Shown here piece by piece: positions 5,761 through 20,906 of a stretch of DNA of 64,000 bases. A model generated the notes under the pieces. The model searched no databases and had not been told where the DNA came from. It saw only the letters and a list, made by a program, of their open reading frames with translations. Source of the DNA: Acidimicrobiia bacterium (lineage in GTDB: Bacteria > Actinomycetota > Acidimicrobiia > Spongiisociales > JAHEDJ01); NCBI GenBank assembly GCA_035471805.1, contig DATIPS010000054.1, positions 1 to 64,000 of the forward strand. Direction: 5' to 3'. A program made the position numbers and the translations under genes. The stretch's first letter is position 1. Every line of letters starts with the position of its first letter.

Positions 5761-8700
5761 CTACTCCTCGTAGCCCGGGTGCAGCAGCCTGGTCCCGCCG
5801 CCCGCCACGGTGGGCAGGTGCGGCATCGAGCCTGCCAGCCCCCTGAGGAGCACGTACATATCCGCCACGGGCTCCAACGAGTACGCCTCCCCGTCTGTGG
5901 CCGGCCGGGTGGGTGTGACGTCGATTACCTCGAGCGTGCCCGGTTCCAGCCGGGCCGTGAATCCGGGGGTCGAATACTCGACCGACCCGTTCAGAGTCAT
6001 TCGGTGTGTCTCGCCGCCTACCCGGCTCTCGATCGAGCCGTCCTCGAAGATCATGAAGGCGTTGCCCACCTGGGCCTCGAAGTCCTCCCGGTCCAGGTAC
6101 AGGCGCGGCTTGTCTACGTATGGTCGTCCCGAAGTCGGACATGCCGTCGTGCAGTTGCCGCATTCGTTGCAGAAATCCGTGAGGACGGCGATCTGGAACT
6201 GCTGGTCCGCTCGATACGGCGAGGTGCCGCCGGCCGTCAACTCACCTCCCGACGCAGTCAGGGTCGCCAGGTCGGTCCGGAACGGGTCCATCTCGTAGGT
6301 CATCAGTGCCATGTTCGGGCACACCCCGACGCACAAGGAGCAGATGAGATGGCAGTCGAGGCACCGGGCTGCCTCGGCCATGGCTTCCTCGGCTGTGAAC
6401 CCGACGACCGTTTCCTCGAATCCGTCACGCTCGGACAGTGCCGTGTGCGACACGGGGACGCGATACTCCCGCCGGGACCTGCGGACGACCATGTCCTGGA
6501 GATCCACCTGCGGGTTTTCGACGGGTGGAGCCGATCCGTTGAGAGAGGAGGCGATGGAAGCTGCCACGGCTTTCCCGTCGGCCGCCGCCTTGACGATCGA
6601 GGACGGGCCGTGGGCGGCTACGTCTCCACCGGCGTATACGCCGGGGACGGTCGTTTCGAAGGTCGCCGGATCGACGACCAGGTAACCCTTCGCAGTCAAC
6701 TCCGGCGTCTCGCCGTCGAAGAAGTCCAGAACTGAATGCTGGCTGATGGCCAGGATCATCGTATCGAGGGGAATCTCGAACTCCGAGTCGGGCACGTCGA
6801 AGGGGATCTTCCGCCCTGAGGAGTCCCGTTCGCCGGTGTACCGGGTCCGGGTGCAGACGAGTCCGGCCAGCGCTCCGTCCTCGATGTGCAACGACGACGG
6901 ACTGGCCAGCTCGACTATCTCGATGCCCTCTTCGAGGCATGCATGAACCTCTTCGCGATCGGCAGGCATCTGGTCGATGGTGCGCCGGTAGATGATCGAC
7001 ACTTTCCCCGCACCGGTGCGGAGGGCGGAGCGAGCACAGTCCATGGCGGTGTCTCCGGCACCGATGATGCCCACCCGGTGGCCGATCGGCACCGGATCGC
7101 CTTCGCGCACACTGCGGAGATACCTGAGGGCGTCCAGCACGCCGTCGGCATCCTCGCCCGGCAGTCCGAGCTGCTTGGCCAGTTGCGCTCCGACTGCCAC
7201 GAAAACGGCTTCGTATCCCTCCCGGCGGAGGCCGTCCAGGGAGAAGTCGACACCGGCCTTCATCCCATAGCGGATTTCGACACCGAGCGACTCGAGGACC
7301 GCGACGTCCTGGTCGATGACGGTCTGCGGGAGCCGGTAGGAGGGGATTGCCCCACCGACCATTCCACCGGCATAGGGGTGGGCTTCGAATATCGTCACGC
7401 CGAATCCTGCGTAGGCGAGTTCCTGCCCCGCGGACAGGCCGGCCGGCCCGGCTCCGATGATGGCAATCTTCTTGCCCGTTCCCGGTTTGCGGGTGAACAG
7501 CACCGGTTGCTCCTCGTGCTCCATGATGAACCGCTTCATGTGCCGGATGGCCAGTGGCTCGTCGAAGTGGGTACGGATGCAGGTGTTCTCGCAGAGATGA
7601 TCACATACTCGCCCGAGGATCGAAGGGAGGGGGTTGTCCTCCCGGGTCAGCCTGACGGCCTCGAGGAAGTCGCCGTTGCGCACGGCGTTCATGTACTGCG
7701 GGACCTTCTGGTCCACGGGGCACTCGTCCAGGCACGGTGCTTCGATGCAGTCGAAGTAGTGGAGGCCGCGCGGAGTCTTCGAACGATCCGTCCGGAAGGA
7801 CTCTTTCCGGTAACGCCAATCGGATCGCACCTCGTCGGCGTAGTGGCGGAGATTCAGCCGCGCCAGCACCCTGCCCACCAACCCGACCAGAGCCTCGGAT
7901 CGATCGAAATCGCTCCCTGCCTCGACAGCCCAGGCGCGGGTTACCTCAACGGCAGGGCGGTCGATCGACTCCGAACGGAGAGCTTCGGCCAGTCCACGAC
8001 ACGAGTCGAGGTCCAGGTTCAGACCGCTGTCGGTGAGTGCGGAGTAGCGGAGCAGCGGGGCGAACTCGTCGAGGTTGGCGTCGCGCAAGGCGGACTTGGC
8101 AACGAAATCGGACAGATCCTCGGCGCCCACATCGTCGATCGCCTTCTCGAGGTGCTCGATGTACTGGAGCATTCGAAGGTAGCCGCCGGACTTGAGCAGG
8201 TCCGAGCACACGGTGACCGTCTTCATTCCGGACTTGAGCAGACCGGCGACGTTGAACGCATCCGCCCCACCGGCGAATGACAGCAGCAGATCGCCCCGGA
8301 AATCCTCCGAGATGCGCATAGCCAGATTGGCCGTGACGGCGTGCAAAGCGCGGCCGGAGAGATACATCATGTCGTCCGCCTCGAAAACCGTGCGCCAGTT
8401 GTTCACCTCGAGCGTGTTCGAGAGTTTCAAGCCGAAGGTGAGGTTGTGTCCGGCCGCCACCCTCCTGAGGTTGTGAAACATCGGCACGGCGTCGGCGTAC
8501 TTCAAATCGTGGCCGAACGCTTCGTCGGGGATCGGAACATCGTCGAAGCCGAGGTCTTCGTTGATGATTCCGCGTACGCGGTCGGCGCCGAGCAAGGTCG
8601 GGTTGCACTTCACCGAGGTGTGAAGCTGCCGCTCATCGAGCAGGTATTCGGTGATTCGTTCGATCTCATCCGGAGGGCAGCCGTGCATCGTCGAGAGCGT

Positions 8701-9318
8701 GATGGTGTTGGAGATCTGGGTCGGTATTTCGAGATTCCGAACGTCGGGATACCGCTGAGCGACGATTTCGACGTAGGCCGGAAGGTAGGCCGAGGCGTCA
8801 CGCATGGTGTCGAGGAACCACTGCACGTTCGGCTTCAGGATCCCCTCGAGGTTGTAGCCGACGCTCATGTTGAAGATCATTCCGGGTCGGTCGCCGGGGA
8901 AACCAAGCTTGTGGTGCAGAGCGTGGATGAGCACCCAGGCTCTCAGATACTCATCGAACGATTCGAATACCTTGAGCTCCTGCGACCACTCGACGTTGTA
9001 TCCCTCGTCTTCTATGTCGATGCAAGGTTTGTTGACGTCCAGTTCGTCGAGGGTCTGCACCGTCTTGAGTTCGATGAATCGGGCGCCGACCAGCCATGAG
9101 ACGATGATGTTCTGGGCCATCTGCGTGTGCGGTCCTGCGGCGACGCCGAATGGCGTTTCCAGCCACTGGCCGTACTTCTCGAGTCCGAAGCGATCGCCGG
9201 CGGACGGCTCGAAGAAGGCAGAGCGCGGAACGCCGAACAGGGAGTTCTTCTGCTCGAGTTCATCGAAGACCCAGTCGGTCAGCTGCTCCATCGAAATGGG
9301 ATGGAATCGATCGGACAT
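5761..9318 (-). CDS. ygfK: YgfK-type Fe-S flavoprotein (putative selenate reductase subunit) of the Se-Mo hydroxylase system
   Basis: The 1185-residue protein has an N-terminal DHOD/TIM-barrel-like region (FGVAAGPHTQMAQNIIVSWL). A glutamate-synthase-small-subunit-like half follows: a Cys cluster near 524 (CIEAPCLDECPVD), FAD site IIGAGPAGLSAG near 616 and NAD(P) site IIGAGDTAMDCARSA near 748. Two ferredoxin-like clusters end it, near 985 (CLDCHLICSLCVGVCP) and 1049 (CNECGNCTTACP). It is somewhat longer than E. coli YgfK (about 1030). In E. coli ygfK sits beside ssnA, ygfM and xdhD, as here, and is thought to shuttle electrons between NAD(P)H and the Mo hydroxylase. The start is supported by AGGAG upstream. 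It is second in a ssnA-ygfK operon (18-bp gap). Confidence 0.92.
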   Translation of the reverse strand: MSDRFHPISMEQLTDWVFDELEQKNSLFGVPRSAFFEPSAGDRFGLEKYGQWLETPFGVAAGPHTQMAQNIIVSWLVGARFIELKTVQTLDELDVNKPCIDIEDEGYNVEWSQELKVFESFDEYLRAWVLIHALHHKLGFPGDRPGMIFNMSVGYNLEGILKPNVQWFLDTMRDASAYLPAYVEIVAQRYPDVRNLEIPTQISNTITLSTMHGCPPDEIERITEYLLDERQLHTSVKCNPTLLGADRVRGIINEDLGFDDVPIPDEAFGHDLKYADAVPMFHNLRRVAAGHNLTFGLKLSNTLEVNNWRTVFEADDMMYLSGRALHAVTANLAMRISEDFRGDLLLSFAGGADAFNVAGLLKSGMKTVTVCSDLLKSGGYLRMLQYIEHLEKAIDDVGAEDLSDFVAKSALRDANLDEFAPLLRYSALTDSGLNLDLDSCRGLAEALRSESIDRPAVEVTRAWAVEAGSDFDRSEALVGLVGRVLARLNLRHYADEVRSDWRYRKESFRTDRSKTPRGLHYFDCIEAPCLDECPVDQKVPQYMNAVRNGDFLEAVRLTREDNPLPSILGRVCDHLCENTCIRTHFDEPLAIRHMKRFIMEHEEQPVLFTRKPGTGKKIAIIGAGPAGLSAGQELAYAGFGVTIFEAHPYAGGMVGGAIPSYRLPQTVIDQDVAVLESLGVEIRYGMKAGVDFSLDGLRREGYEAVFVAVGAQLAKQLGLPGEDADGVLDALRYLRSVREGDPVPIGHRVGIIGAGDTAMDCARSALRTGAGKVSIIYRRTIDQMPADREEVHACLEEGIEIVELASPSSLHIEDGALAGLVCTRTRYTGERDSSGRKIPFDVPDSEFEIPLDTMILAISQHSVLDFFDGETPELTAKGYLVVDPATFETTVPGVYAGGDVAAHGPSSIVKAAADGKAVAASIASSLNGSAPPVENPQVDLQDMVVRRSRREYRVPVSHTALSERDGFEETVVGFTAEEAMAEAARCLDCHLICSLCVGVCPNMALMTYEMDPFRTDLATLTASGGELTAGGTSPYRADQQFQIAVLTDFCNECGNCTTACPTSGRPYVDKPRLYLDREDFEAQVGNAFMIFEDGSIESRVGGETHRMTLNGSVEYSTPGFTARLEPGTLEVIDVTPTRPATDGEAYSLEPVADMYVLLRGLAGSMPHLPTVAGGGTRLLHPGYEE

Positions 9319-9336: not shown

Positions 9337-10359
9337 TCAGAGTCGGGAATGAAGGCGAGCTGCCTGCTCTGCAGCTTTGGCGCGCACTTCATCGGCATCG
9401 ACCCGCGTTGTCTTGCCATCTTCGAAAACGGTTTCGCCGTCGACCCTGACCTCGAGCGGCCGCACTCCCGGTGTGAAGGCGATGTGCCACGGGTCCATCG
9501 GCTCGTACGACCAGGTGACTTCATCGTTGCGAGCTTCCGGCATGATGTCCCAGCCGGTCTCCAACCACGACCAGGCACGATCGGGTCCGGCGGTGACATC
9601 GACGGACCGCTGCATGACGTAGGCGAGTCGGAACGATTCGATCACGTTGGCGCCGATACCGTCGGTGCCCAGCGCCACCGGGTTGGAGAACCGGGCGGGG
9701 TTGGCGTATCCGACGCCGTTGTTCAGGTTCGAACGCGGATTATGGAGAATCGTGCCGTGCAGATGATGCTCGGTCGGAAGGTGCACGCAATGGCTGAGCA
9801 GCCAGTTGTCGCGGGTCAGCCCTGCCAGCCGGGACGGCGCGTCCTTGTCTCCGATGCCCTCTGCCACATGAATGTGAACGCCGACGCCTAGGTCGTTCGC
9901 CAGATGAGCTGCGTGGCGCAGCGACTCATCCGAGCACGTGAAGGCGGCGTGGATCCCCACCAGGCCCTTGTTGCCCTCCTTGATGAACCGTTCGTTTTCG
10001 GCGAGGCCGCGCCTGGCTCCGTCGACGCCGTGGCGGTCGGTGATGCCGTAGGCCGGGAGAACCCGTACGCCGACTTCTGCGCAGGCTTCGGCGATCACGC
10101 TCAGGCTGCCTTCGATGGCGTTCGGCGACTCGTGGTGGTCGACTATCGCAGTGGTGCCGGCCTCCAGTGCCTCGACTGCACCGAGCATGGCCGACCAGCG
10201 AATCATCTCCAAGTCCAGGGCCGTATCGAGACGCCACCAGATTTGCTCGAGGATCGTCTGGAAGTCTGTCGGGGTCTTCGGGGGAGGAGGCATTCCTCTG
10301 GCCAGAGCCGAGTAGAGGTGGTGGTGGGCACAAACCAATCCGGGTGTAGTCGCTGCCAT
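9337..10359 (-). CDS. ssnA: SsnA-type aminohydrolase, N-terminally short
   Basis: This is an amidohydrolase-superfamily enzyme with metal-site motifs CAHHHLYSALARGM, DHHESPN, HIHVAEG and ALGTDGIG. It aligns by eye with E. coli SsnA from the first metal motif to the end. ATG 10359 is preceded by GAGAGGAG. The frame stays open upstream, but that stretch resembles no known N terminus. From 10359 the protein has 340 residues against about 440 in E. coli, with the HxH motif already at residue ~10. The N-terminal half of the usual beta-sandwich is therefore missing. The likely role is deamination of a purine or related heterocycle feeding the Mo hydroxylases; the substrate is unproven. It is divergent from ygfM. 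Confidence 0.8.
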   Translation of the reverse strand: MAATTPGLVCAHHHLYSALARGMPPPPKTPTDFQTILEQIWWRLDTALDLEMIRWSAMLGAVEALEAGTTAIVDHHESPNAIEGSLSVIAEACAEVGVRVLPAYGITDRHGVDGARRGLAENERFIKEGNKGLVGIHAAFTCSDESLRHAAHLANDLGVGVHIHVAEGIGDKDAPSRLAGLTRDNWLLSHCVHLPTEHHLHGTILHNPRSNLNNGVGYANPARFSNPVALGTDGIGANVIESFRLAYVMQRSVDVTAGPDRAWSWLETGWDIMPEARNDEVTWSYEPMDPWHIAFTPGVRPLEVRVDGETVFEDGKTTRVDADEVRAKAAEQAARLHSRL

Positions 10360-10574
10360 ATCGCTCCTCTCGGCTACCCAAGCTAGCGGGCCGGCTTCCT
10401 CGTTTCCCATCTCGCAGGGGAATCTCACCATTGAGCGCTGCCCGGCGCGCCGGGTGTGATCCGGAATGAGCGTGGCCGTCGGCAACTATCCTGGTTGAGT
10501 CTTCTTCCTGCTCCGGTCGTGTAGCTCCCGGCCCGGGCAGACGTGGAGCTTGTCGAGTGAATGCGGGGTATGGG

Positions 10575-11318
10575 ATGCGAACGATCACGATGTACCACAG
10601 GCCTACGAGCCTCGGTGAGGCGTTAGATCTCATGGCCAGGGAAGGAGTGAGTTCGGTAGTGGTGGCCGGCGGGACGGTCGTCAACTCGTCGCCTCATCCA
10701 CCGGACACAGAAGTCATCGATCTTCAAGCCATCTGCGGCAACACGATCGAGAACGAGAATGGCCGCCTGGTCATTGGCGCAATGACCCGGTTGCAGACCC
10801 TCGTTGAGAATCCGGCGGTTCCGTCGCTGCTGCGCGAGCTGACCTACCGTGAAGGTCCCAACACCCTCCGTAACGCCGCCACGATTGGCGGCACCGTGGC
10901 GGCGGGTGACCCCGACAGCGAGCTGCTGGCAGGTTTGCTGGTCTTCGAAGCAACGGTTCGAGTCGAGCACCAGGGCCGCACCTCGACTCTGCCGGTTGCG
11001 GATCTCCTCGCCGACCGGCGACTGATCGAAGGCGGGATCATCAGCTCGATCTCCGTCGCCACCGGCGGAACCACCGCCTCGGCCAGGACCGGGCGCACTC
11101 CCGCAGATGTTTCGATCGTTGCCGCAATCGGGCGATCTGCCGGTGACGGTGTGCTTCTGGCGCTGACCGGGGTTGCCGCCACGCCGATCCTCGCCACGCG
11201 CGAGACGATCGCACATCTCGATCCGTCCGGCGATTTTCGCGGTTCGGCCGATTATCGGATCGACCTTGCCGGGACCCTGGCCGGCCGAGTCTTCGATCAG
11301 TTGGGAGGTGTGGCGTGA
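10575..11318 (+). CDS. ygfM: FAD-binding subunit of a molybdenum hydroxylase (YgfM/XdhB type)
   Basis: The protein has about 247 residues and the CO-dehydrogenase/xanthine-dehydrogenase FAD fold. It opens MYHRPTSLGEALDLM, has the ADP-ribose loop VVAGGTVVN, then LRNAATIGGTVAAGDPDSEL, the flavin-binding TIGG segment. I chose ATG 10575; an in-frame GTG at 10557, 9 nt after GGAG, is an alternative. Its stop overlaps the xdhD start (GTGA). With xdhD it corresponds to the E. coli ygfM-xdhD pair. It should pass electrons from the Mo/Fe-S subunit to NAD or to YgfK. Confidence 0.88.
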   Translation: MRTITMYHRPTSLGEALDLMAREGVSSVVVAGGTVVNSSPHPPDTEVIDLQAICGNTIENENGRLVIGAMTRLQTLVENPAVPSLLRELTYREGPNTLRNAATIGGTVAAGDPDSELLAGLLVFEATVRVEHQGRTSTLPVADLLADRRLIEGGIISSISVATGGTTASARTGRTPADVSIVAAIGRSAGDGVLLALTGVAATPILATRETIAHLDPSGDFRGSADYRIDLAGTLAGRVFDQLGGVA

Positions 11319-14227
11319 AGATCGACCTGAGAGTGAACGGAATCGATCGATCCTTCGACTGCGCGCCACACGAGTCTCTTCGAGCTGTGCTTCGCCGGGA
11401 GGGCCTCTTCAGCGTTCGTTTCGGGGCCGAGACCGGCGAGACCGGGGCGGACGCCGTTCTGCTCGACGGCCGGTTGGTCTCCTCCGAGATCATGCTGGCC
11501 GCCCAGGCCGGTGGGCACAGCGTCGAGACCGTCGAAGGCCTGAACCCTGCACGGGGGCTTCATCCGATCCAGGAGGCCTTCGTCGCCTCGGGCGCCATCC
11601 AGTCGGGATACTCGACCCCGGCCATGATCCTCGCCGCCAAGGAGCTGCTCGACCGCAATCCTGATCCCACCGAGGTCGAGGTGCGGGATGCGTTATCCGG
11701 AATCCTCGATCGCGAGACCGGCTACCTGCGGCCGGTCCACGCCATCTTGCGGGCCGCGGCAATGCTGCGCGGTGAGGCGATCGCTCCGATTGAACCGGCG
11801 CTGATCGAACCCCTCGTCGAGCCCGATCAAGGGCCCGATTTCGGCGCAGTCGAGCGGTGGCTCGACCTTCCGCCGCTGGCTCCGAAGGTCATTCCGAGCC
11901 CCGACGTTCCCGAGACCCAGGTGGTCGGCAAGCCCGAGCGGAAGGTCGACGCCGTCAAGCTCGCCAAGGGTCATCCTGCGTTCGTAGACGACATCGAACT
12001 GCGCGGGATGCTCTACGCCAAGATGCTCTACAGCCCGCATGCCCATGCCCGGATCGTCGGTATAGACGACTCGCGCGCCCGGGCGCTTCCCGGCGTTCAT
12101 GCCGTTCTCCACCACGAGAACGTGGCCCGGGTCAGGTATGCCTCCGGCGGTCAGAGCTACCCGAATCCGCTCCCTTACGATCAGGTCAGCTTCGACAACA
12201 AGGTCAGGCACGTTGGAGACCGGGTCGCCGTGGTAGCCGCCGAGTCCATCGAGATCGCCGAGGAGGCCGTCTCTCTGATCGATGTCGAGTACGAAGTCCT
12301 GCCCGCGGTGTTCGACGAGAACGAGGCCATTTCCGGTCATGCGCCGATCATTCACGACGAACCCGACATGGAAGGTGCCTTCGACGCCGCTCGCAATATC
12401 GTCCAGCACATCGAAGCTGAGGTGGGGGACATCGAGGCCGGACTGGCCGGCGCGGATCACGTGTTCGAGCGGACCTTCCGGGTGCATCAGGTTCAGCAGG
12501 CGCCGATTGAGCCGCACATCGCCATCTCGTGGTTGGACAGCGATGAACGGCTCGTCATCCGGACCTCGACCCAGGTTCCTTTCCACGTCCGCCGGATGGT
12601 TGCCCCGCTGCTCGGCCTCCCCGTCCGGCAGGTGCGGATCATCAAGCCCCGCATCGGTGGTGGTTTCGGGGTGAAACAGGAGATGCTGATCGAGGATATC
12701 GTCGGCCATCTGACCCTTGCCACCGGGCGCCCCGTGCGCCTCGAACTGAACCGGCAGGAAGAGTTCGTCTCGAGTCGAACACGACATCCGCAGACGATCA
12801 CGTTCACGACGGGTGTCAAGAGCGACGGAACCCTGGTCGCTCAGAGAATGCGGACCGTGGCCAACACCGGCCCCTACGGGACGCACGCACTGACGGTACA
12901 GATGGTCAGCGGGCTGCGCGGTCTGAGTTCCTACAACTCCCCGAACAAGAAGTTCGACTGTGACGTGGCCTACACCAATGTTCCCGTCGCCGGCGCGTAC
13001 CGCGGTTACGGCGCGCCGCAGGCGCTGTTTGCCCTCGAGTCGCACATGGAGGACATTGCGACGGCGCTCGGGATGGATGTTCTCGAGTTCAGACGCAAGA
13101 ACTGGACCAAGGTCGGCGATCCGCTGGACGTGGCGGCCGAGCTCGGCGAAGGGGCGGCCGAGATGAAGTTCATTCCCGTGGTCACCTCCAGCGGGATGGA
13201 TGAGTGTGTTGCCCAGGGACAGCGCGCCGTTGGGTGGCATCGCCGCTACGACCCCGAATGGGTGAGTCCGAGCGATCGTCCCCACATCCGGCGTGGCATC
13301 GGCTTCGCGATGTGTATGCACGGGAGCGCCATTTCCGGACTCGATATGGGCGGTGCGAGTCTCAAGATCAACGACGACGGATCGTTCAACCTCCTCATTG
13401 GAGCCACCGATCTCGGTACCGGAGCCGACACGATCCTGGCGCAGATCGCGGCAGAGGTGCTGGGCGTGCCGACTGAGGAGATAATCGTCTATGCCGCCGA
13501 CACCGACATGACGCCGTTCGATGTGGGTGCCTATGCCTCGAGCACCACCTATGTGTCGGGCATGGCCGTCAAGAAAGCCGCCGACGAAGTCCACCGGCAG
13601 ATCGTCACCCGGGCTGCGTTGATGCTCGATGTCGACTCCCCCGGCGAAATCGTCCTGCGCGACCGGGCGGCCTTTGCCACGGATGGACGCTCGGTGACTC
13701 TGGCGGAGGTGGCGTTGCATTCGCTTCACCAGGACGATCAGCACCAGATCATGGCCACCGCGTCCTATGTCGCCCCGGATTCCCCGCCACCGTATGCCGC
13801 ACAGTTCGCCGAGGTGGAGGTGGATGTGGAAACCGGACAGGTCACCGTCTACGCACTCGTGATGGCGGTCGACTGCGGAGTACCGATCAATCCCATGACT
13901 TCGGCGGGACAGGTAGAAGGGGGGATGGTTCAGGCACTCGGATACGGCCACTGTGAGGAAATGGCTCTCGACGAGGACGGGCGGATGGTCAATGCCCGGT
14001 TCGGACCGTACAAGCTCTATCGCAGCGACGAGATGCCCCGGATCGAGGCATACCTGGTGCAGACAATGGAGAAATCGGGTCCGTTTGGGGCCAAGGCGAT
14101 CGCTGAAATCCCCAAGGACGGGGTGGCGCCGGCGATTCGCAACGCGATCTTCAATGCAACGACGGTCGCCATCGACAACATTCCGTTCACGCCCGAGCGG
14201 GTGTGGCGGGCTTTGCAGGACCGCTGA
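11315..14227 (+). CDS. xdhD: XdhD-type molybdenum hydroxylase with a degenerate, cysteine-free ferredoxin domain
   Basis: The 970-residue protein fuses a 2Fe-2S ferredoxin-type domain (about 1-155) to a large Mo-pterin catalytic domain. Catalytic features include GGGFGVKQE near 447, the GAYRGYGAPQ pterin loop, and GPFGAKAIAEIP near 921, which supplies the active-site Glu. The ferredoxin region keeps the fold text (SGYSTPAMILAAKELLDRNPDPTE) but every cluster cysteine is replaced: SVRFGAETGETGADAV where CxxxxCGxC is expected, QSGYS for QCGFC, GILDRETGY for LCRCTGY. As I recall it, E. coli XdhD shows the same loss. It probably hydroxylates purines or related compounds with a Se-Mo cofactor. It overlaps ygfM by 4 bp. 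Confidence 0.92.
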   Translation: MKIDLRVNGIDRSFDCAPHESLRAVLRREGLFSVRFGAETGETGADAVLLDGRLVSSEIMLAAQAGGHSVETVEGLNPARGLHPIQEAFVASGAIQSGYSTPAMILAAKELLDRNPDPTEVEVRDALSGILDRETGYLRPVHAILRAAAMLRGEAIAPIEPALIEPLVEPDQGPDFGAVERWLDLPPLAPKVIPSPDVPETQVVGKPERKVDAVKLAKGHPAFVDDIELRGMLYAKMLYSPHAHARIVGIDDSRARALPGVHAVLHHENVARVRYASGGQSYPNPLPYDQVSFDNKVRHVGDRVAVVAAESIEIAEEAVSLIDVEYEVLPAVFDENEAISGHAPIIHDEPDMEGAFDAARNIVQHIEAEVGDIEAGLAGADHVFERTFRVHQVQQAPIEPHIAISWLDSDERLVIRTSTQVPFHVRRMVAPLLGLPVRQVRIIKPRIGGGFGVKQEMLIEDIVGHLTLATGRPVRLELNRQEEFVSSRTRHPQTITFTTGVKSDGTLVAQRMRTVANTGPYGTHALTVQMVSGLRGLSSYNSPNKKFDCDVAYTNVPVAGAYRGYGAPQALFALESHMEDIATALGMDVLEFRRKNWTKVGDPLDVAAELGEGAAEMKFIPVVTSSGMDECVAQGQRAVGWHRRYDPEWVSPSDRPHIRRGIGFAMCMHGSAISGLDMGGASLKINDDGSFNLLIGATDLGTGADTILAQIAAEVLGVPTEEIIVYAADTDMTPFDVGAYASSTTYVSGMAVKKAADEVHRQIVTRAALMLDVDSPGEIVLRDRAAFATDGRSVTLAEVALHSLHQDDQHQIMATASYVAPDSPPPYAAQFAEVEVDVETGQVTVYALVMAVDCGVPINPMTSAGQVEGGMVQALGYGHCEEMALDEDGRMVNARFGPYKLYRSDEMPRIEAYLVQTMEKSGPFGAKAIAEIPKDGVAPAIRNAIFNATTVAIDNIPFTPERVWRALQDR

Positions 14228-14232
14228 CTCCC

Positions 14233-15024
14233 GTGACCTCAGGAGACAACGCCCGGGTGCTGAGCGAGCTGGCTGCCGCAGTGGAGAGCGGTCGTCCGGT
14301 AGCTCTGGCCACCGTCGTCCAAACCCGGCGTTCGGTTCCGCGCAGAGCGGGCACCAAGATGCTGGTCTTCGGCGACGGCCGTACCGTGGGCACGGTCGGC
14401 GGCGGAGCGATGGAGGCGGCGGTCATCGAGGAGGCACTCGCCGCCATCGCGACAGGCACCAATAGTCTGTTGGAATACGATCTCTTGAATCCCGCCGACG
14501 GGGATCCTGGGATCTGCGGCGGCGAAGTGAAGATCTACCTGGAGCCCTATATGCCACCTCACACGGTCTATGTCATCGGCTGTGGCCACGTCGGTCGCAG
14601 TGTGGTCGATCTGGCCCACTGGCTCGGCTACCGGACGATCGCGGTCGACGATCGTGAGGACCTGGTATCGGAAGAGGCGTTGCCGAACGCCGACGTACGG
14701 TTCAACGGGTCGGTGGACCAAGCCGTGGCCGAATATCCGATTTCCGTCGACTCGTCGATCGTGGTCGTGACCAGGAGCACCGATCTCGATGTTGCCGCCC
14801 TGCCGCACCTGGTGGGTTCGGCGGCCCGTTACGTCGGCGTGATGGGTAGCGCCACCCGCTGGCGAACGACCCGGGACCGTCTGATCAGGGCGGGAGTGCC
14901 TGTTGAAAGCCTCGACCGTGTGCATTCGCCGATCGGCATAGAAGTTGGCGCCGAGACCCTCGAAGAGATCGCCGTCTCCATTCTGTCTGAGATCATCAAG
15001 GTCAACCGGACGGTCGGGGTCTAG
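14233..15024 (+). CDS. XdhC/CoxI-family molybdenum hydroxylase maturation factor
   Basis: The protein has about 263 residues. The N-terminal XdhC_CoxI domain has TVVQTRRSVPRRAGTKM and TVGGGAMEAAV. A C-terminal Rossmann domain begins YVIGCGHVGRSVVDLA and includes YVGVMGSATRWRTTRDRL. XdhC proteins bind Mo cofactor, help insert the terminal sulfido (or selenido) ligand and deliver the cofactor to the apoenzyme. I prefer GTG 14233, just after the xdhD stop; a GTG at 14203 inside xdhD is possible. The 3' end overlaps the yqeB start (TAGTG). Its place between xdhD and yqeB supports a job in loading this enzyme. Confidence 0.85.
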   Translation: MTSGDNARVLSELAAAVESGRPVALATVVQTRRSVPRRAGTKMLVFGDGRTVGTVGGGAMEAAVIEEALAAIATGTNSLLEYDLLNPADGDPGICGGEVKIYLEPYMPPHTVYVIGCGHVGRSVVDLAHWLGYRTIAVDDREDLVSEEALPNADVRFNGSVDQAVAEYPISVDSSIVVVTRSTDLDVAALPHLVGSAARYVGVMGSATRWRTTRDRLIRAGVPVESLDRVHSPIGIEVGAETLEEIAVSILSEIIKVNRTVGV

Positions 15025-15824
15025 TGCTCTTCGGTGAGCACCCGATCGTCGTCCGTGGTGGCGGTGATCTCGCCACCGGCGTCGTGTATCGATTGTGGCG
15101 TGCCGGGTTCCCGGTCGTAGTCACGGAGCTCGCCCGTCCGCTGACGATCCGGCGCACGGTGGCCGTTTCCTCCGCGGTATCCGAGGGAGAGTTTCGAGTT
15201 GAAGGCCTCACGGCAGTCCGCGTCGACTCGGCCGCCGGCGCCGTCGCGACGGCCCTGAGCGGTCGGGTTCCCGTACTGGTCGATTCAGGACTTCCCGAGT
15301 TACCGGACCGTCCGTTCGCCGTGATCGACGCCCGGCTGGCAAAACGAAACATCGATACGTCGATCGGCGACGCACCGCTGGTCGTGGGCCTGGGGCCCGG
15401 GTTCAGCGCCGGGTTGGACTGCCACGCGGTCGTGGAGACGATGCGAGGCCACCGTCTCGGTCGGGTGATCCTCGACGGCTCGGCCGCCCCGGACACCGGT
15501 GTGCCGGGGGTAGTCGGCGGAGAGTCCGAGAAGCGGGTGGTGCGTGCATCGACCTCGGGCACGCTGGTGTGGCGGGTGGCCATCGGCGACGCAGCCCACG
15601 CCGGTGAGGTGCTCGGCGAGATAGGCGGCGAGGCCATCGAGGCACCGCTCAGCGGAGTTGTCCGCGGCCTGCTGTCCGAGGGTGAGACGGTACGGGGGCT
15701 CAAGATCGCCGACATCGATCCCCGGGCGGATGCATCCGCGTGTTTCGAGATCTCCGACAAGTCGCTGGCAGTAGGCGGGGGAGTTCTGGAGGCCGTGCTG
15801 GCGTGGCTGGGCCGGAAGGGATGA
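15024..15824 (+). CDS. yqeB: YqeB-type selenium-dependent molybdenum hydroxylase accessory protein (EF2563 family)
   Basis: The 266-residue protein opens with the family's VVRGGGDLATGVVYRLWRAG Rossmann loop, then VLVDSGLPELPDRPFAVIDARLAK and VVGLGPGFSAG. The C-terminal third looks like a lipoyl/biotinyl-type beta barrel (VLGEIGGEAIEAPLSGVVRGL). Members occur almost only in genomes with Se-dependent Mo hydroxylases and are held to act in maturation of the labile selenium cofactor. The start is GTG 15024 overlapping the previous stop by one base; the stop overlaps yqeC by 4 bp. Confidence 0.9.
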   Translation: MLFGEHPIVVRGGGDLATGVVYRLWRAGFPVVVTELARPLTIRRTVAVSSAVSEGEFRVEGLTAVRVDSAAGAVATALSGRVPVLVDSGLPELPDRPFAVIDARLAKRNIDTSIGDAPLVVGLGPGFSAGLDCHAVVETMRGHRLGRVILDGSAAPDTGVPGVVGGESEKRVVRASTSGTLVWRVAIGDAAHAGEVLGEIGGEAIEAPLSGVVRGLLSEGETVRGLKIADIDPRADASACFEISDKSLAVGGGVLEAVLAWLGRKG

Positions 15825-16525
15825 CCCTGGCCGGGCAGCTGGGGGTCCGGCAGCGCGAACTCATTGCGCTGGTCGGGGGCGGAGGGAAGTCGACCCTCAT
15901 GTTTCGGCTCGGCGCCGAACTCGCCGCAGGAGGCCGGCGCGTGATACTGACGACCACAACGAAGATGGGCCGCAGCCAGATCGAGGCGGTTCCGAACGTG
16001 TGCGATTCGATCGATGGCACTCTGGCGAGTCGGCCGCAACCGGGTCCGATCATGCTGGTGACCGGTGGGGATTCACACAAGGTCACGGGTCCGCGACCGG
16101 AGGAACTGGACACGCTGGCACGCCACCCCCTTGTCGACTTCGTGGTCGTGGAAGCCGACGGCGCGCACGGCAGGCCACTCAAAGCTCCGGCCGCGCACGA
16201 ACCGGTTGTGCCGTCGTCGACGACGATGGTCGTGATCGCCATGGGCATCGATGCTGTGGGGGGGAGGCTGATGGACGTTGCTCACCGGGTTGAGCGTGCC
16301 GTTGCGTTCACGGGCTTCGACCCCGATCGAGTCATGACGCCGGAGGATTGCGCACTTGTCCTGAGCCATCCGGAGGGTGCCCTCCGCAAAGCGCCCGCCG
16401 GAGCCAGGGTGGTGGTGGCATTGACCAAGGTGACCGGCGATTCGGCAGGCACGGCAGAGAGGGTTCGCCGCGCGTTGGCCGGCCATCCGGCGATCGACGA
16501 TGTGGTTGCGATCCGGGCTCGATGA
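15821..16525 (+). CDS. yqeC: YqeC-type selenium cofactor biosynthesis protein
   Basis: The 234-residue protein has a P-loop-like GGGGKSTLMFRLGAELA near residue 19, then VILTTTTKMG, and VVVEADGAHGRPLKAPAAHE, the Walker-B-like family signature. YqeC is a marker of selenium-dependent molybdenum hydroxylases and probably an NTP-using factor in their cofactor assembly. ATG 15821 overlaps the yqeB stop (ATGA). The MocA-like YgfJ nucleotidyltransferase usually found in such clusters is not in this window, so it may lie elsewhere or be dispensable. Confidence 0.9.
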   Translation: MTLAGQLGVRQRELIALVGGGGKSTLMFRLGAELAAGGRRVILTTTTKMGRSQIEAVPNVCDSIDGTLASRPQPGPIMLVTGGDSHKVTGPRPEELDTLARHPLVDFVVVEADGAHGRPLKAPAAHEPVVPSSTTMVVIAMGIDAVGGRLMDVAHRVERAVAFTGFDPDRVMTPEDCALVLSHPEGALRKAPAGARVVVALTKVTGDSAGTAERVRRALAGHPAIDDVVAIRAR

Positions 16526-18128: not shown

Positions 18129-20708
18129 TTACTTCTGGATCGGTTGGTGGATTCCCATCGGGAGTCGGTTGCGCCAGATTCCGTCCACCTCGTGGTAGGC
18201 GGCGGCCACCGCGCCGGCCGTGGGAACCAGGCCGATCTCGCCGACGCCCTTGATACCGTAAGGCGCCCTCGGCTGGGGTACCTCGACGAGCACGGCCTCG
18301 ATTTCCGGGATGTCCTTGGCCCGGAGGATCCCGAGGCTGCGCAGCGTCATGTTGGTCGGCCTCCCGAGTTCGTCGGTGGGGAACTCCTCGGTGAGGGCAT
18401 AACCGAGGCCCATGTGGACGGCGCCTTCGATCTGGCCTTCGACGAGCTGCGGGTTCATCGCCCGGCCGATGTCATGGACTGCGATCACTTTCTCGATGGT
18501 TCCCGTCTCGGGGTCCGCGATGACCAGTTGAGCGGCGTAGCCGAATGCCGAATGGATGACCGGGTTCTCCAGGCCGTCCTCCAGGGCGTTGGTCCAGTCG
18601 ACCCGGTACTCGCCGACGTAGTCGACTCCCGGTGCCCGTCCTGCCTCGTTGGCGATGCGGCAGGCTTCGGCGACTGATCCGGCCCCCAACAGTGTTCCGC
18701 GCGATCCGGTGGTCTGGCCTGCGCCCAGCTCCCTGGTCGTGTCTACGACGACCCGGATCAGGGCCGGGTCGATGTCGAGCTCCTCCGCGGCGATCTGCAT
18801 GGCCACGGTATGAATCCCCTGACCCATCTCCGTCCAGCAGTGGCGGACCTCGACCGTTCCGTCATCTTCGAACCGGACAACAGCCCTGGAGATCTCGACG
18901 AAGCCGTTGCCGAGCCCGGAGTTCTTCAGACCGAGGCCCAGTCCGATTGCCTTCCCCGCCGCCCGGGCGGTGTCGTAGGCGGGTTTCACAGCGTCCAGGC
19001 ACCGACGCGCTCCGGCCGACCCATCGTCCATGATCTGGCCGGGACCCCAGACGACCCCGGGTGTGATGACATTGCGCGACCGGATTTCCCAACCGCTGAT
19101 GCCGACCTTCTCGGCCAGCCGGTCGAGAAGGCCCTCTGTGGCGAACTGAGCCTGGTTGGCGCCGAACCCCCGAAAAGCCCCGCACACCGGGTTGTTGGTG
19201 CGGACGGCGACCGCTTCGACGTCGATGGCCGGAAACACATAAGGTCCGGCCGCATGTCCGGCGGCCCGTTCGAGCACCTTCATTCCCACCGACGCGTACG
19301 GCCCCGAGTCTCCGACCATTCGCATCCGCAACGCCGTCAAGCGGCCCTCCGAATCACAACCTGCCGTCGCTTCGATGCGGATCGGGTGGCGTTTCGCGTG
19401 CATCAGCAGTGATTGCTCCCGGGTCAGAGTGCACTTGACCGGTCGTTGCAGCAGATGGGCGGCCAGCGCCGTCTGCCCCTGGTTCGACATGTCCTCTTTT
19501 CCGCCGAAAGCGCCGCCGTTGGAGACGAGTTCGACCACGACATCGTCGGTGTCGACGTTGAGGATCGACGCGATCTGATTCCGATCGTCCCATACTCCCT
19601 GGCCGCCTGAGTAGACCTTCAACCGGCCGTCTTCCGGAACCGCCAGGGTCGATTCCGGTTCTAGGAAGGCGTGTTCGACGCGCTGGGTGTGGAATGTCTC
19701 ATGGACTGTGAAGGCCGAGCCCCGGAGCGCCTCGTCCACATCCCCCCTTGCGTACTCCGAGCGAGAGAGAATGTTGCCGTCCAGGCCCCACACTGCATCT
19801 TCATCGGAGGTGAGGGCCGCGTCTGCCGTCGTGAAAGGTGCCAGGACGTCGTATTCGACATCGACGAGCCCGGCAGCACGGCGGGCGACGTCGACGCTGT
19901 CGGCGACGACGACCGCGAGAACGTCCCCCAGGTAGGAGGTGCGTCCCCCCTCCGGAATGAAGACCGGCCAATCGGTGTGAATGATGCCCACTCGCAGTTG
20001 GCCGGGAACGTCCGCGCCCGTGTATACGGCTACGACGCCTTCTGTTTCCTCGGCCGCCGATGTGTCGATGCGCAGAACGTCGGCCCGCGCATGATCTGCC
20101 AGCTTGAGAGCGGCGTGCAGCATGCCGTCGACGACCAGGTCGTCGACGTACCCGCGGTCTCCCAACGCCAACTCGCGTGCCTCATACTTGGCGCCCGACT
20201 CTCCAATCCTCCGTGGTAGTTCGGGAGCCGGGACGGTCCCGTCTCTCAGCATCTCTATCGCTTCGAAGATCTTCGTGTAGCCGGTACAGCGGCACAGGTG
20301 TCCACCAAGTCGGCCGGCGGTCGTCTCCCTGGTCAGGTCCTTGCCCTTCTGGTCCAGCAAGGTCTTCGTGCGGACGAGGATTCCCGGCGTGCAGAAGCCG
20401 CACTGCAGGGCACCGGTGGCTGCGAACGCGGTCGCCAGGCGTTCGCGCTCCCCGGGATCGAAACCCTCGAGTGTCGTGACCTCTCTCCCGGCCGCCTTGT
20501 TCATGTCCACCAGGCAACTCTGGATGGCCTTGCCGTCGAGGAGCACCGTGCAGGCTCCGCATTGTCCCGAAGGCGAGCACCCGTCCTTGGGCGAGGTGAC
20601 ATGAAGCTCTTCACGCAGAGCCGCCAGCAAGTGAGGATGATCAGAACGAACGGAGACGGGACCACCGTTGAGGCGGAAACTGGTGGTCTCTGGAGTCGTG
20701 AACGTCAT
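18129..20708 (-). CDS. Selenium-dependent xanthine dehydrogenase (2Fe-2S plus Mo subunits fused)
   Basis: From ATG 20708, preceded by AGAAAGG, the protein has 859 residues. It carries a complete ferredoxin domain (DGCSPSGQCGACTVLLDG near 40, LQCGFCTPGIL near 100, LCRCTGYTKIFEAIEML near 139). The Mo-pterin domain includes SNGGAFGGKEDMSNQGQTA, CGAFRGFGANQAQ and the active-site Glu in GIKGVGEIGLVPTAG. This text is characteristic of the selenium-dependent xanthine dehydrogenase family as I recall it. It should hydroxylate xanthine or hypoxanthine. An in-frame extension to 20831 lacks family resemblance and was left out. The divergent neighbour is a purine/nucleoside-type importer, which supports purine catabolism. 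Confidence 0.9.
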   Translation of the reverse strand: MTFTTPETTSFRLNGGPVSVRSDHPHLLAALREELHVTSPKDGCSPSGQCGACTVLLDGKAIQSCLVDMNKAAGREVTTLEGFDPGERERLATAFAATGALQCGFCTPGILVRTKTLLDQKGKDLTRETTAGRLGGHLCRCTGYTKIFEAIEMLRDGTVPAPELPRRIGESGAKYEARELALGDRGYVDDLVVDGMLHAALKLADHARADVLRIDTSAAEETEGVVAVYTGADVPGQLRVGIIHTDWPVFIPEGGRTSYLGDVLAVVVADSVDVARRAAGLVDVEYDVLAPFTTADAALTSDEDAVWGLDGNILSRSEYARGDVDEALRGSAFTVHETFHTQRVEHAFLEPESTLAVPEDGRLKVYSGGQGVWDDRNQIASILNVDTDDVVVELVSNGGAFGGKEDMSNQGQTALAAHLLQRPVKCTLTREQSLLMHAKRHPIRIEATAGCDSEGRLTALRMRMVGDSGPYASVGMKVLERAAGHAAGPYVFPAIDVEAVAVRTNNPVCGAFRGFGANQAQFATEGLLDRLAEKVGISGWEIRSRNVITPGVVWGPGQIMDDGSAGARRCLDAVKPAYDTARAAGKAIGLGLGLKNSGLGNGFVEISRAVVRFEDDGTVEVRHCWTEMGQGIHTVAMQIAAEELDIDPALIRVVVDTTRELGAGQTTGSRGTLLGAGSVAEACRIANEAGRAPGVDYVGEYRVDWTNALEDGLENPVIHSAFGYAAQLVIADPETGTIEKVIAVHDIGRAMNPQLVEGQIEGAVHMGLGYALTEEFPTDELGRPTNMTLRSLGILRAKDIPEIEAVLVEVPQPRAPYGIKGVGEIGLVPTAGAVAAAYHEVDGIWRNRLPMGIHQPIQK

Positions 20709-20906
20709 GACACCTTTCTGGACGGCCGCCGGAACATGCTCCAACTGAAGCAACCGGATGTCAAGAGCGCAACCCGGAGACCTATTCGTGTCATAGGACC
20801 CCACCGTATGTGCCCCTTGTTCGGTTGACATCGAGCCGGCGTTCGGCGAGCCTCAGCTGAGTTTGCCGGGAAGCGCCGGCAAATCCGCGAGAGGGAGTCG
20901 GATCGG

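Follow-up and report, generated by a model that had tools for sequence, protein, structure and literature searches.

The xdhD-like gene of this Acidimicrobiia bacterium appears to encode a molybdenum hydroxylase in which the molybdenum site is intact while the internal electron relay is cut, and comparison across the XdhD family points to at least four independent losses of its iron-sulfur clusters. In the textbook path electrons pass from flavin to cluster II, then to cluster I and on to molybdenum. Since the relay has been cut repeatedly, with the molybdenum site and the flavin partner YgfM kept, XdhD probably works outside this mechanism. Our preferred explanation, taken as a whole, is a functional selenium-type molybdenum hydroxylase with a cut relay, whose metal is re-set in its own pocket; we give it a probability of about 50%.

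Within the window, as we call the whole stretch of 64,000 nucleotides analysed, the gene occupies positions 11315..14227 of the plus strand and encodes 970 residues from a GTG start, with a former [2Fe-2S] region fused N-terminally to the molybdenum domains. The Pfam domains MoCoBD_1/2, Ald_Xan_dh_C and Fer2_2 were recognized (PF02738, 264 bits; PF20256, 245 bits), and the best NCBIfam match, TIGR03313, scores 696.2 bits, under its cut-off of 1101.9. The neighbors are of the XdhD type: a YgfM-like FAD-binding subunit (10557..11318, plus strand; PF00941, 75.7 bits; below its own cut-off) that overlaps xdhD by four bases, a YgfK of the yanthine-reductase type (5761..9318, minus strand; TIGR03315, 904 bits against a cut-off of 835.3) and a short-form SsnA-like amidohydrolase (9337..10485, minus strand; TIGR03314, 240 bits, below cut-off). 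A block of maturation genes follows on the plus strand (14203..16525), comprising an XdhC-like factor (14203-15024), YqeB (15024-15824) and YqeC (15740-16525). The last two, both above cut-off, are markers of the selenium-type molybdenum cofactor, and their adjacency indirectly suggests that XdhD is a selenium-type enzyme. A second, wired enzyme of the selenium-dependent XDH type (18129..20831, minus strand; TIGR03311, 830.7 bits against 830.45) carries all eight ligand cysteines.

Residues 1-155 of XdhD match E. coli XdhC and the selenium-dependent XDH of the window end to end, both of which have the eight ligand cysteines, and the Fer2_2 score (PF01799, 74.5 bits against a cut-off of 30.3) makes homology to a [2Fe-2S] domain certain. 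By alignment, none of the eight ligands for the two clusters is present. The cluster II codons (11426..11488, plus strand), aligned to C44, C49, C52 and C64 of E. coli XdhC, encode A38 (11426-11428), T43 (11441-11443), D46 (11450-11452) and E58 (11486-11488); those of cluster I (11603..11716, plus strand) encode S97 (11603-11605), S100 (11612-11614), D132 (11708-11710) and E134 (11714-11716). The cysteines of the protein are at positions 16, 549, 631, 667, 854 and 880 only, so that Cys16 (11360..11362, plus strand) is the sole one in the N-terminal domain and falls in none of the ligand columns. An AlphaFold2 model (mean pLDDT 82.2, mostly 84-94 in the N-terminal domain, with a weak loop at 31-50) superposes on FeS-containing chains from residue 1 and aligns over residues 1-970 with 1dgj (Z 35.7, rmsd 3.2, 847 residues). 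Alignment and model together delimit a putatively cluster-free ferredoxin-type and helical-bundle domain at residues 1-153 (11315..11773, plus strand). These results are in agreement with the initial annotation, which had proposed that the XDH ferredoxin fold is kept without its cluster cysteines, that Cys16 is not a ligand, that E. coli XdhD shares the loss (the K-12 protein has no cysteine before residue 190) and that the internal wire is missing; modeling XdhD alone was one of the checks it had suggested. As ligands for both clusters are absent, no canonical wire is predicted, and we infer that the domain binds no cluster. Databases label E. coli XdhD a 'Mo/Fe-S-binding subunit', its cluster ligands being absent.

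The loss is neither a chance event nor a sequencing slip, since cysteine is absent from seven of the eight ligand columns in all 80 XdhD homologues compared; column 132 is cysteine in 7 of them. S97 and E134 are each present in 80/80, Cys16 occurs in 66/80, and the residues replacing the ligands are near-fixed across phyla. The three cluster I losers all changed C97 to Ser and C134 to Glu or Asp. A metal site taking the place of the clusters was considered and rejected given that no constant four-ligand set exists (position 100 is Ser or Ala, 132 is Asp or Cys, and the cluster II positions vary); a site on S97 and E134 alone is possible. Over 248 pairs of proteins that lost both clusters, the median dN/dS was 0.123 for the N-terminal domain and 0.098 for the molybdenum domain (range 0.03-0.19), and 5130 of 5426 E. 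coli genomes carry DNA of the N-terminal domain. These substitution rates indicate purifying selection on the N-terminal domain rather than decay. A dying xdhD that shed its cysteines first would fit locus L071, where the gene is broken into two frames; set against the low dN/dS, the replacements fixed across phyla and the E. coli counts, this reading is scarcely credible, and for the group as a whole it is refuted.

Both clusters were lost twice, the flavin-side cluster II alone once (24 Chloroflexota genomes) and the molybdenum-side cluster I alone once (L151, a single draft genome that keeps cluster II). In a molybdenum-domain tree of 78 rows, the window clade (30 rows, support 100) is sister to the eight-cysteine L158 (support 99), and the clade lacking cluster II (12 rows, support 100) lies beside the eight-cysteine L167, L169 and L174. 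E. coli XdhD is sister (support 100) to its closest relative found, a Cetobacterium protein with all eight ligand cysteines, both on long branches flagged by the tree program, and L151 stands apart. A reduced tree requires a minimum of four changes. The AU test rejects a single clade for the E. coli and window types (dlnL 185, p 3.2e-61) as well as for L151 and the window types (p 6.3e-6), so a single common loss is rejected and E. coli XdhD and the window type would have lost their cysteines separately. The length of one loop agrees with this grouping: the window clade shares 11 residues with L158, while L151, L152, L153, L154, L167, L169 and L174 have 13 and E. coli has 38. The cut helix of L151 resembles that of the window type (QSGY, RETGY), and its cluster I loss possibly reflects recombination of that half rather than an independent event. 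With the far cluster kept and the near one lost, L151 is also hard to square with a current that still flows.

We sampled 40 further genes (39 from Chloroflexota, one from Actinomycetota), of which 33 could be parsed: the first 28 comprised 12 lacking cluster II, 3 lacking both and 13 with eight cysteines, and the 5 parsed later, with 9-11 cysteines each, were classed as eight-cysteine forms. In a survey of 396 Actinomycetota genomes, based on the match table and one gene, the top matches other than G000 and G031 have open frames that are short, as is usual where the FeS subunit is a protein of its own. The Enterobacteria were represented by E. coli only. The recurrence of wire loss across the family goes beyond what the initial annotation could see.

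At the molybdenum site, all the hydroxylase-type residues examined are retained, which argues for an intact site beside the cut relay. E931 (14105..14107, plus strand), by alignment at what we take to be the catalytic glutamate of the xanthine-oxidase family, is Glu in 69 of 70 rows lacking both clusters, the remaining row being a gap. Compared with molybdenum hydroxylases of that family, XdhD has the molybdenum-cofactor domains and the catalytic Glu and lacks the eight-cysteine clusters, and YgfM is the predicted FAD subunit (some members have no FAD domain or subunit). Arg563 is Arg in the window and in 70/70 of these rows, and Gln in E. coli XdhD. E612 (13148..13150, plus strand) aligns with E606 of E. 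coli XdhD, and this Glu is present in 70/70 rows lacking both clusters, in 12/12 lacking cluster II, and in L151, E. coli and Cetobacterium; the part of PMC12507026 consulted proposes that E606 orients uric acid and is uric-acid-specific. XdhAC of C. sporogenes is reported to reduce uric acid to yanthine (PMC12990295).

In the preferred reading, XdhD would belong to the uric-acid reductase (XdhD/YgfM) clade, with its relay cut at least four times in differing orders and the molybdenum active site and YgfM retained. The former [2Fe-2S] domain would persist as a rigid scaffold, devoid of clusters, that lies between the molybdenum domain and YgfM, conserved Ser97 and the acidic residue 134 filling the cluster I cavity. 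A second substrate or small reductant may then re-set the molybdenum in its own pocket, not via protein, through a ping-pong chemistry resembling transhydroxylation. Some evidence runs against this reading. According to the consulted part of Li et al. (PMC12507026), XdhD purified from E. coli together with a protein of ~30 kDa converts uric acid to yanthine with NADH (10 uM enzyme, no rate given in the methods), which implies flavin-to-molybdenum transfer, and an xdhA mutant does not use up xanthine, a result that speaks against xanthine being the reductant in the pocket of the E. coli enzyme. Moreover, the FAD motifs of YgfM would be odd if flavin input were unneeded, L151 is one draft genome, and the E. 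coli and Cetobacterium branches are the flagged ones.

The same NADH-dependent reaction favors reduction of molybdenum by the FAD of YgfM without clusters, by slow long-range tunneling or domain movement. YgfM lies upstream of xdhD in 72 of 80 loci and was found in 17/17 genomes examined, even where no copy adjoins xdhD, which identifies it, rather than YgfK, as the apparent constant partner; its motifs and fold are retained and FAD binding is predicted (model pLDDT 90.4; CutM 1ffu_C, Z 26.9, rmsd 2.9). However, the two clusters alone bridge flavin and molybdenum in the canonical geometry, and the XdhD model retains the fold that sets it. YgfM also evolves faster than the molybdenum domain (median dN/dS 0.277 vs 0.098 in the 248 pairs), a possible mark of a dead flavin, although the control is mixed: the dN ratio of FAD subunit to molybdenum domain is 3.44 without both clusters, 2.54 without cluster II and 0.35 with eight cysteines, where 9 of 11 pairs belong to a single tight group and the ratio is ~3 in the remaining two (L156-L161, L181-L184). 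We regard this route as rather unlikely. A conserved Asp of the FAD subunit is found in 15/18 eight-cysteine partners vs 0/74 of both-lost and 0/6 of II-lost ones, with Glu the most frequent residue in YgfM (52/74 both-lost partners); this difference was set aside as evidence for decay of the FAD site, as the solved FAD-type subunit 7dqx also has Glu there. The initial annotation had suggested that the vacated domain docks an external carrier, with YgfK as partner. A carrier of the YgfK, AegA/YgfT or ferredoxin type would explain why N-terminal conservation exceeds mere folding needs, and E. coli uric-acid use needs formate and AegA, a ferredoxin-GltD protein of unknown acceptor, according to the consulted part of the review PMC8097209. 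YgfK (TIGR03315) is above cut-off in only 19 of 66 cut-wire genomes (19/53 lacking both clusters, 0/13 half-lost), with strong partial matches below cut-off in G459, G467 and G484, where contig ends perhaps split the gene; hence YgfK docking is not the general reason for the cut wire, and of the earlier suggestion the wire loss itself stands and the YgfK partnership does not. The Fe-S motifs of YgfK are accounted for by its own function, described in the consulted part of Li et al. 2025 (PMC12507026) as that of a yanthine reductase resembling dihydropyrimidine dehydrogenase. No conserved ferredoxin-like neighbor was found in 80 xdhD loci (a 4Fe-4S motif occurs in 8, 6 of them YgfK by reading), and a docked carrier would still be far from molybdenum without clusters. 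Docking is thus unlikely, a carrier encoded elsewhere in the genome being possible. Finally, conversion of XdhD into a hydratase, lyase or isomerase needing no electrons would suit clusters lost repeatedly and in either order; every examined hydroxylase-type residue is kept, however, selenium-cofactor genes adjoin xdhD, and E. coli XdhD reportedly carries out a reduction (PMC12507026, as consulted in part), making this quite improbable.

More tentatively, XdhD could be the first member of the xanthine-oxidase family whose molybdenum is reduced and oxidized wholly by molecules in its own pocket. E. coli and the Actinomycetota/Chloroflexota would have arrived at this state independently, and two further lineages would have come half-way. 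Transhydroxylation between purines, or isomerization of xanthine to yanthine, would be examples, with C8 hydroxylation of one purine molecule paying for C6 dehydroxylation of a second. The four separate losses amount to a natural experiment on when a molybdenum enzyme can dispense with such a relay, and enzymes whose wire is full, half-cut or cut could be set side by side in vitro. Gut-bacterial uric-acid breakdown is already used in designing gout therapies. The missing cysteines are unmentioned in the main text of PMC12990295 and in the consulted parts of the main texts of PMC12507026, PMC2997495, PMC2276186 and PMC3958847.

Among known systems, E. coli XdhD-YgfM resembles the window in its cluster-free N-terminal domain fused to the molybdenum domain, the E606-type Glu, the overlapping upstream YgfM and the YgfK and SsnA neighbors; it differs in that the two proteins share 39% identity, apparently lost their cysteines separately, and the window protein falls under the TIGR03313 cut-off. 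The XdhD-like protein of Cetobacterium somerae (L146) is likewise fused, with an upstream FAD subunit, an SsnA/HydA cluster and the same Glu, whereas all eight ligand cysteines are present. The half-wired Chloroflexota forms share the clade and molybdenum site, but the L152 group (24 genomes) lost only cluster II and L151 (one genome) only cluster I. The aldehyde oxidoreductases of D. desulfuricans and D. gigas (1dgj, 1sij) have the same single-chain FeS and molybdenum fold over the full length, and bind two [2Fe-2S] clusters with no FAD subunit. Turnover of molybdenum between two substrates is known from pyrogallol-phloroglucinol transhydroxylase, a member of the DMSO-reductase family unrelated to XdhD.

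The xdhD gene (11315-14227) encodes 970 residues, with cysteine present only at positions 16, 549, 631, 667, 854 and 880. Residues 1-155 can be aligned with E. coli XdhC, the [2Fe-2S] subunit, and with the second enzyme of the window, each of which carries eight ligand cysteines. In this alignment the eight ligand columns of XdhD hold A, T, D, E and S, S, D, E, bearing out the proposal of the initial annotation that all cluster cysteines were gone from the domain. That the XDH ferredoxin fold is nevertheless kept, as it had also proposed, agrees with a Fer2_2 match of 74.5 bits and with an AlphaFold2 model (46-row alignment, mean pLDDT 82.2) whose predicted structure superposes along its full length on single-chain aldehyde oxidoreductases (1dgj, Z 35.7, rmsd 3.2). 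Cys16 (codon 11360-11362) occupies a non-ligand position, yet is kept in 66 of 80 homologues.

The genome encodes four Fer2_2 domains, two of them inside the window: that of xdhD and that of a Se-dependent XDH-type gene (18129-20831) with eight ligand cysteines, which lies 0.25 bit above the cut-off. This fully wired enzyme is encoded around 4 kb from the unwired XdhD and carries an N-terminal extension of about 48 residues; further XDH-type genes adjoin xdhD in L064, L065, L068, L069, L071, L093, L097, L106 and L107. A short SsnA-like gene (9337-10485, 382 aa) matches its NCBIfam profile from position 57-58 to near 340 of 441 and has relatives at 84-95% identity in L036, L037 and L068, so that either this SsnA is compact or its start was called wrongly.

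Scanning 84,980 species genomes with the N-terminal domain gave 210 relatives, of which 80 were retained, from Acidimicrobiia and other Actinomycetota, Chloroflexota and MAGs with other labels. As the search patterns included Cys-free motifs, this set is skewed to cut forms and gives no basis for frequencies. Within it, cysteine never occurs at seven of the ligand columns and is found at the eighth in 7 of 80; the replacements are nearly fixed, with S97 and E134 invariant, T43 in 78 and D/E58 in 79. Neighbouring genes are often SsnA-, HyuA-, YgeW- or YgeY-like, together with an XdhC-like/YqeB/YqeC maturation set. Between the window and L036, dN/dS is 0.084 for the N-domain, 0.032 for the Mo domain, 0.18 for the linker and 0.28 for YgfM, the FAD-binding subunit; among 248 non-independent pairs lacking both clusters the N-domain has a median of 0.123, the Mo domain 0.098 and YgfM 0.277. 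In an Acidimicrobiia MAG (L071, 10001-12900) xdhD is split over two reading frames, a pseudogene or an assembly error.

A search of 201 Chloroflexota genomes recovered fused relatives in other cluster states: eight-Cys forms, forms that lost cluster II and kept cluster I, and the converse in one genome (L151). A second, overlapping draw of 400 genomes from this phylum, where 28 of 40 fetched genes were parsed, raised the genomes lacking cluster II from 12 to 24, and revealed no cluster with one to three cysteines remaining beyond a lone C132. Among the wired relatives recovered, the one nearest to E. coli XdhD comes from Cetobacterium somerae (45% identity, all eight cysteines); it is plasmid-encoded (L146, 7992-10856) with a FAD subunit upstream. 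In a 78-row tree of the Mo domain, leaving out the trait region, E. coli XdhD is sister to Cetobacterium (support 100) and the window clade to eight-Cys L158 (99), the clade lacking cluster II (100) groups with eight-Cys L167, L169 and L174, and L151 stands by itself. The column-1 mismatch of L167, L169 and L174 is a one-residue alignment shift, these genomes having 8-9 cysteines. A 38-row tree requires at least four changes of cluster state and rejects all rows lacking both clusters as one group (dlnL 185, p 3.2e-61); grouping L151 with the window clade is also rejected (p 6.3e-6). The trees come from a quick method, and the E. coli and Cetobacterium branches are long, with one representative each. 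The loop-length marker is consistent with separate losses, and gain of eight cysteines is taken as implausible relative to loss because the outgroups carry eight. For L151, recombination rather than independent loss is possible. Three cluster-I losses share the end state Ser97 plus Glu/Asp134; therefore re-packing of the cavity probably favours a single arrangement.

The Mo site is retained. The catalytic Glu is present in 69 of 70 rows lacking both clusters, the remaining row being a gap. The Glu corresponding to E606 of E. coli XdhD, proposed in the consulted part of PMC12507026 to orient uric acid, occurs in 70/70 rows lacking both clusters, 12/12 lacking cluster II, L151, Cetobacterium and E. 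coli, compared with 8/16 other eight-Cys relatives.

In the xanthine-oxidase family, flavin, two clusters and Mo are arranged as one line. For R. capsulatus XDH this line is summarised in the portion of PMC2997495 consulted. Since both clusters are gone, and L151 lost the near-Mo cluster while keeping the far one, it is unlikely that selection acts on long-range transfer through the domain, and the Mo site would therefore be served some other way. We rank first a second substrate or small reductant that would serve Mo in its own pocket. Against this ranking count two reports in the sections of Li et al. (PMC12507026) consulted: that E. coli XdhD, together with a protein that co-purifies with it, forms yanthine in an NADH-dependent manner, in an assay using 10 uM enzyme for which those methods state no rate, and that an xdhA mutant does not use xanthine.

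Ranked next are direct but slow reduction of Mo by flavin and supply by an external carrier. Regarding flavin, a YgfM gene lies upstream of xdhD in 72 of 80 loci, and 17/17 genomes inspected have a YgfM-like gene, even where none adjoins xdhD (the weakest two matches, 115 and 140 bits, are both from eight-Cys genomes); the YgfM model (pLDDT 90.4) is predicted to resemble the flavoprotein CutM (Z 26.9, rmsd 2.9). Regarding a carrier, YgfK, whose Fe-S motifs had led the initial annotation to suggest that the degenerate domain may be a docking surface for an external electron carrier, is above cut-off in 19 of 66 genomes. A 4Fe-4S motif is found in 8 of 80 loci, six of these being YgfK by motif, and no ferredoxin family emerged among the neighbour-gene clusters of the 80 loci, where counts are lower bounds owing to ORF calling in GC-rich DNA. 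Eleven of the 80 loci (L077, 8155-9180, and 10 others) have a neighbour of about 340 aa, putatively luciferase-like by its start; the consulted text of Li et al. proposes an F420-dependent yanthine reductase of the luciferase-like kind in Chloroflexota (PMC12507026).

The portion of the literature searched contains no statement that XdhD is without cluster ligands or that the loss recurs, and the NCBI name of the protein is 'Mo/Fe-S-binding subunit'. A match in E. coli OkiPb01675 (NZ_AP042478.1, 3373067-3373153), annotated as a 2Fe-2S protein, covers no more than 18% of the N-domain query and is probably a broken xdhD. For the related XdhAC, PMC12990295 treats the identity of the physiological donor as an open question; in E. 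coli, formate and AegA have been implicated, with the acceptor given as unknown in the part of PMC8097209 consulted. XdhD is a member of the xanthine-oxidase family whose two-cluster feature, checked at the level of the ligand cysteines, is absent, and whose fold and Mo site are present.
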